A stretch of DNA of 64,000 nucleotides, from positions 3,348,001 to 3,412,000 of the forward strand of contig NZ_CP089848.1 of NCBI RefSeq assembly GCF_021266465.1, read 5' to 3'. The stretch comes from Paralcaligenes sp. KSB-10 (lineage in GTDB: Bacteria; Pseudomonadota; Gammaproteobacteria; Burkholderiales; Burkholderiaceae_B). Position 1 is the first letter of the stretch, and each line of letters begins with the position of its first letter. Positions 30,341-61,620 of this stretch are shown one piece after another. A program made the translations under genes and the position numbers. Under the pieces are notes generated by a model. That model did not search any database. It was not told the DNA's origin and was given only the letters and a program-made list of their open reading frames with translations.

Positions 30341-30561
30341 GCCGCAGGGTGGGCGGTGCTGTGTAGTCCGGCACGTCCAGCGGTCGTGGTGCTGCGCACC
30401 CCGACTGCCCGGGTCTGCCTCGTCCAGGCGGGCGTCGGGCGAACTCGCCCGGCCTCGCGAGGCCGGGCTCAGACAGCGCCCGCCGACACCCCCCGCCTTC
30501 CCTTCGTCAGCACCCGGCGCTGGACTACCGCCGGACTACACAGCACCGCCCACCCTGCGGC
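30341..30561 (+). repeat. Unit Q, locus B (both arms carry the same substitution)
   Basis: This 221-bp unit has perfect arms at 30341-30372 and 30530-30561. Where copies A and D read TGTGCAGT, this copy reads TGTGTAGT, and the opposite arm has the matching change, so the pair is conserved (C-G to T-A). The lateral hairpin (30383-30405) has one mismatch. Sense orientation follows from glcB. Confidence 0.9.
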
Positions 30562-30719
30562 TTGCGTTGAGGCAATGCATCGAGGTATACGTTGGGGAGC
30601 CCGTGTTTAGTCAATCGAGTCGTACATTGAGGTATACGTGACCACGTGATGGAGGCATGGGTGCGTGCACGTTAATTCCAGACATCCCGTAATGTAATTC
30701 CAGGCATACCCTAACGCGA

Positions 30720-30921
30720 GCCGTCTATCGGGGCTTGGGGTCAGGGCCGGCGTAAGGCGTGCGCCGGATGCTACCGTAGGGAAGGCGGGGGCTTTCGGCG
30801 GGCCATGTTTGAGCGTAGCCGCGCCAGCGGCGTAGCGAGTTTGGCCCGACGCCCGCCTGGACGAGGTAGATCCGGATCAAGCACGCCGTGCCGGCCCTGA
30901 CCCCAAGCCCCGATAGACGGC
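30720..30921 (-). repeat. Unit P, locus B
   Basis: A 202-bp copy whose 32-bp arms (30720-30751 and 30890-30921) are identical to those of locus A, and perfect. Read-through from the MFS gene would transcribe it in sense. Confidence 0.9.
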
Positions 30922-39491: not shown

Positions 39492-40214
39492 ATGGCAGTA
39501 CTCAGCGCAGTCATCATGAACCAGCTCAAGCAAGTCAGTGTGGCCACCGTCACTACGGCCTTGTACAAGCGCGGCTTCAGAAACCAGATGATTCAGGACG
39601 TCTACCCTGTCGGCGCCGGCAAGAAAGAACGCTTGATCGGGCCAGCCTACACACTGCGCTATATGCCGGCGCGTGAAGACCTCAATAAACTCGAGGTCTT
39701 CCGCGACCACGAGCACCCGCAGCGCAAGGCGGTGGAAGAATGCCCGCCGGGATATGTGCTGGTGATGGACAGCCGCAAGGATGCACGGGCCGCCTCGGCG
39801 GGCGGAATATTGGTCACGCGCCTGCAGCAGCGCGGCGTGGCCGGCGTCATTACCGATGGCGGTTTTCGCGACTCAATGGAAATCGCCAGCCTGACGATGC
39901 CCGCCTATCATCACCGCCCTTCGTCGCCGACCAATCTTACGCATCATCAAGCCATCGATATCAATGTGCCGATAGGCTGCGGCGACGCGCCTGTATTTCC
40001 GGGCGACATTATTTTCGGCGATGAGGAAGGCGTGGTCGTGATCCCGGCGCATGTGGTCGAAGATCTGGCTGAAGAAGCGGTCCAGATGACGGCCTTCGAA
40101 GACTTCGTGACGGAAAAAGTAAAGGAAGGCCGTTCGATTCTGGGCCTGTATCCGGCCACCGACCCTAAAACCCTGGACGATTTCGCTGTCTGGAGGAAGG
40201 CCAATAATCGATAG
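39492..40214 (+). CDS. RraA-like / HMG aldolase family protein
   Basis: A 240-residue member of the RraA/class II pyruvate aldolase family. The active-site segment is GVITDGGFRDSMEIA, followed by INVPIGCGDAPVFPGDIIFG and DEEGVVVIPAHVVEDLAEEA. The family includes 4-hydroxy-4-methyl-2-oxoglutarate aldolases and decarboxylases as well as the RNase E inhibitor RraA. In an operon with a sugar-acid dehydratase, a retro-aldol or decarboxylase role on the keto acid fits best. TAGGAGAA precedes the ATG, 11 bp after the dehydratase stop. Confidence 0.87.
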   Translation: MAVLSAVIMNQLKQVSVATVTTALYKRGFRNQMIQDVYPVGAGKKERLIGPAYTLRYMPAREDLNKLEVFRDHEHPQRKAVEECPPGYVLVMDSRKDARAASAGGILVTRLQQRGVAGVITDGGFRDSMEIASLTMPAYHHRPSSPTNLTHHQAIDINVPIGCGDAPVFPGDIIFGDEEGVVVIPAHVVEDLAEEAVQMTAFEDFVTEKVKEGRSILGLYPATDPKTLDDFAVWRKANNR

Positions 40215-40351
40215 GTAATCCGCTGTTTCGTGGTGGGGTACTTATTGCGGGCGTTTTGCGTACTTAAACCGCTGCGCCTGTGGCCTAGCGCATTTTTTGG
40301 TTTGAGTTGCTTACGGAATTCGATGTTTTGGTAGCTTTGGTATTTAAAGAC

Positions 40352-40550
40352 GCCGTCTATCGGGGATAGGGTCAGGACCGGCACGGCGTGCTTGATCCGG
40401 ATCTACCTCGTCCAGGCGGGCGTCGGGCCAACTCACTACGCCGCTGGCGCGGCTCCGTTCAAACAGGGCCCGACGACTTCCCCCGCCTTCCCTACGGTAG
40501 CATCCGGCGCACGCCTTACGCCGGTCCTGACCCTATCCCCGATAGACGGC
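40352..40550 (+). repeat. Unit P, locus C (both arms changed in step)
   Basis: This 199-bp unit has 31-bp perfect arms (40352-40382 and 40520-40550). Relative to the other loci both arms read GGGGATAGGGTCAGGACC instead of GGGGCTTGGGGTCAGGGCC, so one deletion and several substitutions occur symmetrically. The interior is also diverged. Confidence 0.92.
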
Positions 40551-40686
40551 TCGCGTAATGGCATGCCTGGAATGAACTTGCCCGCCTCAACGTATACCTC
40601 GATGCATGATTTCAACGTTTCTCTCGGTGCATGTTTCTCTCGGTGCACGACCCCAATGCCTCTCTCTATGCATTGCCTCAACGCAA

Positions 40687-40907
40687 GCCGCAGGGTGGGC
40701 GGTGCTGTGCAGGCCGGCGGTAGTCCAGCGCCGGGTGCTGACGAAGGGAAGGCGGGGGCCTTCGGCGGGCGCTGTCTGAGCCCGGCCTCGCGAGGCCGGG
40801 CGAGTTCGCCCGACGCCCGCCTGGACGAGGCAGACCCGGGTAGTCGGCTAGCGCAGCTAGCCGACCGCTGGACGTGCCGGACTGCACAGCACCGCCCACC
40901 CTGCGGC
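40687..40907 (-). repeat. Unit Q, locus C
   Basis: A 221-bp copy. The arms (40687-40718 and 40876-40907) match except for one base (CAGGCC against CAGTCC). The lateral hairpin (40843-40865) is GTCGGCTAGC-GCA-GCTAGCCGAC, a different but fully paired stem compared with loci A and B. Confidence 0.92.
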
Positions 40908-41116
40908 GTCCTTATAGAATTAACCGCCGCCTACACAGCAACGCTCACTCCAAAGTCACTACCCAAGCCAAAAAGCGGCTCAAAAAACAAAGTGACTGAA
41001 ACACACCCAGTGCCATAAAACACTCGAACCAAAAATGCCCCAGGCGAGTCGAGCTCGCATCGCCCAGCCTTGACCTTGCCGAGACTGCCCGTGTCCAAGC
41101 CACCGGCGCCGCTCAC

Positions 41117-41884
41117 TCACGCAAGCTGCTCAATGCGCTGCGACAATTGCCTGGCGTTCTGCACCACGAGTTCGATTAGCGCTGTTTCCGGCAATTGCAA
41201 AGGCGTGCGCTCGTCGGTCACCAGCACCAGGCTGCCCAGAATTTCCTGGTGCTCGCCAAACACGGGAGCGGCAATACCCACCACCCCTTTATCCAGCTCG
41301 CCGCGCGAAATGTAATAGCCCTGGCTGCGGATTTGCCTCAACGAACGGCTGAACGCCTTCCAGTCGCCCCCCAAGGCCATCGCATCGTCGCGCGTGAGCG
41401 GATCGAGCAGCGAAGCCTCGTACAGGCGCTTGAGCCGACGCCGCTCCATATGCGCCACGACCACATGCGCCTGCGAACCCCGGAACAGCGGCATGGGCAA
41501 ACCTTTCGTATACCGCAGCCGTATGGCTTGTACCCCGGTCACATGCGCGACGTTCACCAGCGTGTGATCATACATATTGCACAGCAGCACATTGGCTCCG
41601 GTAGCGCGGGCCAACGCATCCATAAGATCATGCGCCGCCGCGATGATCGGATCGCAAGTGCTGATCAGGTATTCGAGCTCGATCAGCTTCAGGCCAAGCC
41701 GATAGCGACCGAACAGCCGCGACAAAAGTCCAGCCTCGACCAGATCGGCCGCATAGCGGTAGGCCGAGGCCGGGCTCGCATCCAGGGCCTGTGCGATTTC
41801 ATCGATGGTAATCAGCGGCTTGTGCTCGCCAAACAGGTTCAGGATGGTCGACACGCGGCTGATGACTGAACGCTCATTGGCCAT
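41117..41884 (-). CDS. IclR-family regulator
   Basis: A 255-residue regulator with the IclR winged helix (VISRVSTILNLFGEHKPLIT, then IDEIAQALDASPASAYRYAA) and a C-terminal effector domain (RLGLKLIELEYLIST, GANVLLCNMYD, ISRGELDKGVVGIAAPVFG). The start at 41884 (MANERSV) is chosen; the frame is open seven codons further. It is divergent from the FAD monooxygenase gene and likely controls it. The ligand is unknown. Confidence 0.9.
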   Translation of the reverse strand: MANERSVISRVSTILNLFGEHKPLITIDEIAQALDASPASAYRYAADLVEAGLLSRLFGRYRLGLKLIELEYLISTCDPIIAAAHDLMDALARATGANVLLCNMYDHTLVNVAHVTGVQAIRLRYTKGLPMPLFRGSQAHVVVAHMERRRLKRLYEASLLDPLTRDDAMALGGDWKAFSRSLRQIRSQGYYISRGELDKGVVGIAAPVFGEHQEILGSLVLVTDERTPLQLPETALIELVVQNARQLSQRIEQLA

Positions 41885-42042
41885 GGCAAACCCTCCGGGC
41901 GACAAAAGCTGGATTCACACGCAACACTCCCTTATCGGTTGGCCCATTTCCAGATCGCGACTGGCGGCAGGATGGAGGCTTACTTCGCGCTGACACCATG
42001 CCTGGAAATAGAACTCGGCAATTATCTCATTTAAAAAGAATA

Positions 42043-55157: not shown

Positions 55158-55343
55158 GTGCGTGAGCCACCCAACAGGGAAGACCCCAAACCAACGCCGC
55201 CGACACGGCCGGACAATGACGAATGCTGTCACAGCTCATGCGAGCCTTGCATCTTCGATCTCTACGAAGACGCGCTCGATCGGTACCGGGCTCAACTAAG
55301 CGCATGGATCGAGCGCCACCCGCAACAAAAGCCGCGGCCCTGA
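55158..55343 (+). CDS. Small oxidoreductase-like domain protein
   Basis: A 61-residue protein with the cysteine-rich oxidoreductase-like (OXLD1-type) motif DECCHSSCEPCIFDLYEDAL and an aromatic/Arg tail. The proline-rich N-terminus is typical. The start is GTG at 55158; no in-frame ATG precedes the motif. Biochemical function is unknown, although the CC-x3-C-x2-C pattern could bind a metal. Confidence 0.8.
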   Translation: MREPPNREDPKPTPPTRPDNDECCHSSCEPCIFDLYEDALDRYRAQLSAWIERHPQQKPRP

Positions 55344-55386
55344 CCCCCTGGCTTTATCATCATGGCCTAATAAGGTGATCGACACC

Positions 55387-61102: not shown

Positions 61103-61323
61103 GCCGCAGGGTGGGCGGTGCTGTGCAGTCCGGCACGTCCAGCGGTCGGCTAGCTGCGCTAGCCGACTACCCGGGTCTGCCTCGTCCAGGCGGGCGTCGG
61201 GCGAACTCGCCCGGCCTCGCGAGGCCGGGCTCAGACAGCGCCCGCCGAAAGCCCCCGCCTTCCCTTCGTCAGCACCCGGCGCTGGACTACCGCCGGACTG
61301 CACAGCACCGCCCACCCTGCGGC
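61103..61323 (+). repeat. Unit Q, locus D
   Basis: A 221-bp copy with perfect 32-bp arms (61103-61134 and 61292-61323). The lateral hairpin (61145-61167) is GTCGGCTAGC-TGC-GCTAGCCGAC and the apical palindrome CCCGGCCTCGCGAGGCCGGG is at 61210-61229. Sense orientation follows from gfa. Confidence 0.92.
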
Positions 61324-61418
61324 TTGCGTTGAGGCAATGCATAGAGAAGAAGCATTGAGGTCATGCATCGAGGTATACGCTGGGTCGGCAAGCTCATTCC
61401 AGGCATGCCACAACGCGA

Positions 61419-61620
61419 GCCGTCTATCGGGGCTTGGGGTCAGGACCGGCGTAAGGCGTGCGCCGGATGCTACCGTAGGGAAGGCGGGGGCTTTCGGCGG
61501 GCCATGTTTGAGCGTAGCCGCGCCAGCGGCGTAGCGAGTTTGGCCCGACGCCCGCCTGGACGAGGTAGATCCGGATCAAGCACGCCGTGCCGGGCCTGAC
61601 CCCAAGCCCCGATAGACGGC
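61419..61620 (-). repeat. Unit P, locus D
   Basis: A 202-bp copy. The arms (61419-61450 and 61589-61620) pair except at one base near the inner end (TCAGGACC against TCAGGCCC when both are read inward). Read-through from the GT39 gene would transcribe it in sense. Confidence 0.91.

Follow-up and report, generated by a model that had tools for sequence, protein, structure and literature searches.

In-step changes in the hairpin arms of a dispersed Burkholderiales element are probably the product of template switching

The window considered here, a stretch of 64,000 nucleotides from Paralcaligenes sp. KSB-10 (contig NZ_CP089848.1, positions 3,348,001 to 3,412,000), harbors copies of a composite inverted-repeat element at loci that we term A to D. 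At locus C the element lies between two genes that converge on it, namely an upstream plus-strand ORF (39492-40214) that is RraA-like by eye and a downstream minus-strand ORF (41117-41905) that by eye resembles an IclR-like regulator. The composite, of about 760 bp, is made up of a unit P, a linker, a unit Q and terminal inverted repeats, and its extent at locus C is approximately 40286 to 41042. Unit P (40352-40550, minus strand), as delineated by pairing and folding, is a long imperfect hairpin whose left arm (40352-40382, plus strand) and right arm (40520-40550, minus strand) are perfect partners, complementary over all 31 nt; the RNA fold predicted for the plus strand from 40340 to 40560 reaches -143.8 kcal/mol (z -14.3). 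Between these arms is a conserved core (40395-40510, minus strand) that scores 109.7 bits against R1, a covariance model of the core comprising 37 sequences, 107 positions and 30 pairs. A linker (40551-40686), defined from the sequence, separates P from unit Q (40687-40907, plus strand), the arms of which (40687-40718 and 40876-40907) are 97% paired and the core of which (40728-40841, plus strand, 99.2 bits against R1) is inverted with respect to that of P; both core sequences are themselves in the R1 alignment. The Q interior at this locus is homologous to the P interior in the opposite orientation; the interspersed element thus carries a pair of related units, each a long hairpin, set head to head. 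Beyond them come further conserved stretches, ending in a common terminal inverted repeat (about GYATTTTTGGTTYRAGTGTTTA), which motif matches place approximately at 40286-40310 (plus strand, P side) and 41019-41042 (minus strand, Q side).

The sister loci have the same constituents: locus A (686-1228) has P at 686-887 (arms 686-717 and 856-887) and Q at 1008-1228; locus B (30341-30921) has Q at 30341-30561 and P at 30720-30921 (arms 30720-30751 and 30890-30921); and locus D (61103-61620) has Q at 61103-61323 and P at 61419-61620 (arms 61419-61450 and 61589-61620), the P arms of the last being 97% paired, with GGACC on one arm and GGGCC on the other. The arm motif occurs eight times in the window against an expectation of 0.11. 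A lone match to GGGTCAGGGCC on the minus strand at 55336-55346, which has no accompanying R1 match, is possibly a remnant or a chance occurrence. An earlier sequence-only reading of this DNA had claimed that both P arms of locus C depart from those of loci A and B in the same manner, and the sequence bears this out: both arms contain GGGGATAGGG where the common type is GGGGCTTGGGG, and both have the same one-base deletion, being 31 nt long against the 32 nt of the arms of loci A and B, which contain GGGGCTTGGGGTCAGGGCC and are likewise 100% paired. While the symmetric change is thus real, the accompanying claim that it represents several independent events need not hold, because the changes at C constitute a single shared haplotype, ATAGGG, which recurs on both arms of two other host copies and on one arm of a third.

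Across the closed 4.45-Mb host genome there are at least 171 core matches (91 stretches plus the window) in at least 87 groups; the copies were listed by pattern, which makes these totals lower bounds, and 168 core matches with up to three mismatches come close to the 171 found. Among the 87 listed groups, 76 have two units, seven have one, and four have three, the latter being a P plus a Q split by an insertion; the head-to-head orientation is identical in all 76 of the 76 two-unit groups listed. At least 82 P units (191-206 nt) and at least 80 complete Q units (221-227 nt) were extracted in full, the extraction leaving out five partial core matches (one partial Q and four fragments of insertion-split Q units) and four Q units without a right arm. 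The terminal inverted repeat motif, with up to two mismatches, has 65 matches in the genome against none for the reversed pattern, and fuzzy matches to it lie at both ends of 60 of the 87 unit groups, a count made without a control and plainly including some chance matches. In the four split Q units an insert of about 1.45 kb breaks the core, at one and the same position in each (L042, 1743869-1745313; L054, 2135235-2136679; L058, 2285675-2287119; L071, 2881879-2883323), and the insert of L042 encodes a protein that by eye resembles IS110/IS1111-type transposases. Collapsed composites also occur: in L024 (986958) and L026 (1102526) the end of Q is joined to the left arm of P, and in L243 (4406867-4407509) P is reduced to one arm end with Q intact, these being deletions of the kind expected from long hairpins. 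The small inner hairpin of Q (e.g. 40840-40870) exists in two unrelated self-complementary versions, GGTGCTACGCACC and GGCTAGCTGCGCTAGCC, which alternate between copies with both sides changing together.

In-step change of the arms extends to the host copies as a whole. Over the outer 25 nt, 29 of the 82 extracted P units have a non-consensus arm, and 11 of these 29 display the identical variant on both arms; shuffling the arm pairing gives a mean of 0.33 symmetric units with a maximum of three, none of 10,000 shuffles reaching 11. Likewise, 24 of 80 Q units are symmetric over 31 nt against 9.2 expected, none of 10,000 shuffles reaching 24, with the caveat that the shuffles of both units ignore the relatedness of the copies. 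The 11 symmetric P variants represent eight distinct haplotypes, among which are both-arm T>A, C>A and T>G substitutions as well as the loss of one base from each arm. Other copies display single-arm counterparts of some of these changes, namely TATT, position-22 T>G and T>C, CTAGGGG, and a chimera at 2460038 that has the ATAGGG haplotype on one arm only. The remaining 18 variant P units, of the 29, lack such symmetry, implying that any copying between arms is not fast. Moreover, the letter at position 27 of the P arms (GGNCC) is free to vary and frequently mismatched between paired neighbors, only about 10 nt from the symmetric changes, which would require that copy tracts be short or that this position be special. 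That the arms match by chance, or because a few copies share an ancestor, and that nothing maintains the match, is a notion to which we accord almost no credence: the three ATAGGG copies could indeed descend from a single changed ancestor, but eight symmetric haplotypes in one genome, with the shuffles as above, speak against it, as does the pairing of arms in other genomes described below.

Compared with locus C, the two other host copies with ATAGGG on both arms have 10 and 18 differing letters in their interiors, and a copy at 788034 shares the locus C interior exactly (133/133) yet has CTTGGGG and TTTGGGG arms; arms and interiors have therefore been reshuffled. Exchange between genome copies can thus also move arm haplotypes or interiors, and one might ask if ectopic gene conversion alone accounts for locus C, which would have taken its arms or its interior from a dispersed copy with no arm-to-arm copying at all. 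Consistent with this are the roughly 80 similar copies in the host, the presence of the ATA haplotype on interiors 0, 10 and 18 letters from that of C, and the existence of one one-arm chimera. Nevertheless, this explanation leaves the origin of the symmetric haplotypes themselves unaccounted for; further, in relatives, pairing is seen even in units whose arms match none of the other copies that were examined from the genome concerned (e.g. G010 and G020), and at an orthologous locus, detailed below, both arms have changed and the interior has inverted without the unit moving. We hence hold it improbable that conversion between dispersed copies is the whole explanation.

A search with the core query recovered matches in 52 of 268 genomes of the family (host included), representing 20 of 43 genera, with 18 of the 52 matching genomes having only weak matches (best E above 1e-5). 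The arms are paired (score of at least 15) in 75 of 88 distinct units from 29 other genomes, 27 of which have such units; these 75 paired units have a median of 31 Watson-Crick pairs, and 19 of them are perfect. When arms are swapped between units of different genomes the median score falls to 7, and three of 500 such combinations reach 15. The core is kept while the arm sequences differ from copy to copy within a single genome (e.g. G020 and G010), and copies with the same arms exist in some genomes (e.g. G214 and G033). As the arms vary and still pair, they are constrained to match each other and not to keep a particular sequence. In some relatives (G236:C44 near 77679, L116, and similarly in copies of G235 and G237) the final stretch of the unit, some 20 bases, is tandemly repeated downstream of the right arm (e.g. 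GTCATAAGAACCCGGACAAC).

To judge how the arms diverge we compared closely related units, using the outer 24 bp of the arms, leaving out units scoring below 18 and skipping 18 gapped pair evaluations. In 11 disjoint close pairs there are 27 symmetric changes versus 17 single-arm changes, so that unpaired changes, which the sequence-only reading had held to speak against its proposal, do not predominate in relatives. The symmetric changes comprise 17 transitions and 10 transversions, and the single-arm ones comprise nine resulting in G.U, two in A.C and six of transversion type, in addition to one double change without pairing. Transversions thus make up comparable parts of the two classes (10 of 27 and 6 of 17), as expected if each symmetric change is one mutation that has been copied, the numbers being small. 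The full set of close pairs, which are non-independent, include some misaligned arms and again leave out units below 18, gives 89 symmetric changes (50 transitions and 39 transversions) alongside 97 single changes.

Inversion of the interior between the arms can be read from the assemblies in two cases, which belong to different genera. At an orthologous locus of G168 and G167 (L126/L127), for which the G168 genome is a single contig, the flanks are 97-100% identical for up to 1 kb on each side, and the interior is 100% identical but inverted, with no other interior change; the 27-nt arms differ by two symmetric G-C/T-A transversions. Similarly, the interiors of two G027 paralogues align in inverse orientation with 96% identity across 142 nt, one flank being collinear (80% over 173 nt) and the other without clear similarity. 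These observations bear directly on the conventional explanation, i.e., that the arms form the stem of a functional RNA or single DNA strand in which a harmful mutation on one arm is rescued by a second, independent one on the other. For the 10 symmetric changes of the disjoint pairs that are transversions there is no G.U intermediate through which such rescue might proceed, and the symmetric deletion and multi-base haplotypes of the host are equally awkward for it. So are the absence of interior changes beside two double transversions in G167/G168, and the interior inversions in this locus and in G027.

In light of the above, we propose that the arms change in step by template switching at the hairpin, whereby one arm is copied onto the other, with selection subsequently acting on the product, and we consider this the probable explanation. 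Homogenization of arms, inversion of the spacer and the introduction of several changes at once are described as marks of template switching between inverted repeats, or quasipalindrome mutation, in the accessible portions of prior work (PMC8604942; PMC8794818), and the latter, in the part available, proposes that the process creates and maintains RNA hairpins. The arm matching and interior inversion seen here correspond to this published signature. Under this proposal, the DNA polymerase would occasionally switch template at the hairpin during replication; a mutation on one arm, or a variant gained there from another copy, would be copied to the other arm in a single step, and a switch spanning the loop would invert the interior. 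Locus C would then be a copy with the ATAGGG haplotype fixed on both arms, and the one-arm copy at 2460038 looks like an intermediate. Selection on the product would conserve the core in sequence and structure and, within the family at least, favor a folded strand that stays paired. Of the two options that the sequence-only reading had put forward, arm-to-arm copying is accordingly the one upheld by the symmetric transversions and deletion, the one-arm ATA copy and the two interior inversions. The other, in which independent mutations are sorted by selection for pairing, explains the data less well, but strand-specific selection may add to copying, as the residual mismatches suggest.

When the paired units of relatives (the 13 of 88 units with arm scores below 15 being left out) are read on the strand that presents GGCTTCCGTAGGGAAGGCGGGGG first across the core, the arm mismatches comprise 63 G.U against 18 A.C, with G.U in excess in 34 units against five (36 ties) and in 20 genomes against one (six ties). 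This bias is not predicted by copying alone and counts in favor of compensatory evolution, as do the core stems of a 37-sequence family alignment (A1), which have 32 G.U against 3 A.C. In contrast, the order-wide core stems (alignment A2) have no bias (44 G.U against 36 A.C), although the order-wide units with arm scores of at least 10 (n=11) have seven against two (p 0.18). In the host the arms display 36 G.U against 10 A.C without P position 27, and 43 against 26 with it, since that position has 16 A.C against seven G.U, a tally that, like the order-wide one, runs counter to a purely compensatory account; the host count leaves out Q positions 33-40, which are constant and mostly unpaired. 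The share of G.U among core-stem cells is low (32 of 1106 in A1 and 44 of 2240 in A2) despite the many symmetric-change cells of A2, a combination that counts in favor of copying between arms. Mutation bias was considered as the cause of the G.U excess and set aside, the host core changes on the core strand being three C>T and five G>A, which are small numbers. The replication strand is an unlikely cause in the host, as P and Q of one composite are oppositely oriented; in relatives the 75 units fall 40 and 35 on the two contig strands. Thus, selection on a single-stranded form of the core strand, within the family, is a possibility suggested by these sequence comparisons, perhaps added to copying.

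The core itself is found well beyond the family. Of 300 genomes drawn from the order, with the host among them, R1 matches at least 58, which represent at least 28 of 135 genera, and in a phylum-wide draw at least two of 299 genomes, namely the host and one other genome of the same order; strict filters, with 12 candidates per genome scored, make these genome counts lower bounds. In other families we collected 78 R1 matches in 40 loci, chosen partly for showing pairs, and 77 of these matches form 48 groups, comprising 27 head-to-head pairs, 19 single units and two other pairs, a sampling that favors pairs. Alignment A2 of the 78 matches, which was fitted to the model structure, has 91.8% of its cells paired, and its 532 double-change cells against 133 when shuffled, with a covariation score of 0.579 against 0.134, are a further point in favor of compensatory evolution. 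Template switching can also yield covariation. On the arguments above, we judge compensatory evolution acting by itself to be unlikely, if less so than conversion alone; on sequence data it retains some probability provided that its intermediates are rare. Among these other families, long paired outer arms are confined to that of G366 and G441: of the 77 units scored (one 63-nt partial match being left out), the nine with arm scores of at least 15 are all in L200-L203; the self-matching arm is therefore not universal in the order. In most of L204-L239, from other families, the core is followed by a flank that is GTCGCCTTTTCTTTGG or similar, GTCGCCTTTTCTTTGGTTACTTTC-like. The conserved core has invariant loop letters. 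Rfam has no match in the window at the gathering threshold, and a search of 14 loci gave two weak matches (E 0.43 and 1.9), neither of them on a core; nor did we find a description of the core in the open-access literature, in which two elements discussed below, BRE and Bor-1, are comparable by description only.

Gene contexts obtained with a home-made gene caller provide some indication of function. Among the 84 host groups with both neighbors called, 57 lie between convergent genes, 17 and seven in the two tandem contexts and three between divergent genes, and none of 87 lies inside a called gene; by a rough baseline (all pairs minus groups) about 16 of 207 other neighboring gene pairs in the same stretches are convergent. 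This preference for convergent ends, together with the avoidance of genes, the conserved core with its invariant loop letters and the strong covariation, suggests that the composite works as a structured element where genes end, chiefly at the 3' ends of convergent pairs, an inference from sequence of which we are less sure. A classical intrinsic terminator is not supported at locus C, for the hairpin feet of P and Q are not followed by a T run; elsewhere in 40200-41150, in a scan of this locus alone, there are three terminator-like sites against 1.1 expected. A simple sense-strand 3'-UTR element was also rejected, the core strand in tandem contexts of relatives being co-directional in 16 cases and opposite in 15 according to the same kind of home-made caller. 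By eye, no shared gene was seen near the units among the ORFs of L139, L165 and part of L042.

Comparison with known repeats yields partial parallels. The GTAG/CGTC REP elements (PMC3733652) are palindromic and often paired in opposite orientation, and some CGTC dimers sit inside longer palindromes, as the available part of that account relates; those REPs are 20-40 bp in all according to the same portion, which does not fit P and Q with their lengths and arms of about 31 bp, and the CGTC at P arm positions 3-6 lies inside the paired stem instead of forming an unpaired tag, which sets it apart from the CGTC class. As in a MITE, the composite has terminal inverted repeats and some 85 dispersed host copies, and it may also spread as one; unlike a MITE, its units in relatives also occur singly and with other arms. 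YTRG is found at many composite ends, with no clear target duplication by eye. BRE (PMC3110155) is a betaproteobacterial repeat, including in Alcaligenaceae, which the consulted section describes as usually intergenic, of 69% GC, and present in a transcribed region of B. pertussis; it differs, by this description, in being 75-91 bp and often tandem. Bor-1 of Bordetella (PMC2267715), compared by what is accessible of its description, is likewise intergenic with a predicted structure, and both BRE and Bor-1 could be relatives of the present core. Rfam RF02278 (Betaproteobacteria toxic sRNA) resembles it in being a betaproteobacterial RNA family, and was rejected as its single host match, at 4219589, falls outside every listed unit. 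With respect to template switching, the published cases differ in that here the outcome is seen, from sequences alone, in dozens of elements scattered through bacterial genomes, with arms that have been rewritten around a conserved core. The mechanism as such is known; as far as our searches of the open-access literature show, what is new is that it acts on a widespread family, rewriting arms and inverting interiors.

When both sides of a stem change in a compensatory manner, this is usually taken to prove that a functional RNA is involved, and a natural set of dispersed hairpins such as this one shows how far the mutation process itself yields matching arms, with spacer inversion serving as an independent mark of the template-switch process. 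As the same data hint at strand-specific selection, the two causes become separable in one system. More tentatively, we posit that the composite could be an undescribed element present in much of the order Burkholderiales, in which two head-to-head invertible hairpins each have a conserved core of about 107 nt, with long outer arms that, in the host family and one other, would be free in sequence by virtue of template switching, and in which the folded core strand, as RNA or single-stranded DNA, might work at convergent 3' ends. If the core family, which is apparently unnamed, truly is so, it would also add a structured element that is common in a large order of bacteria.
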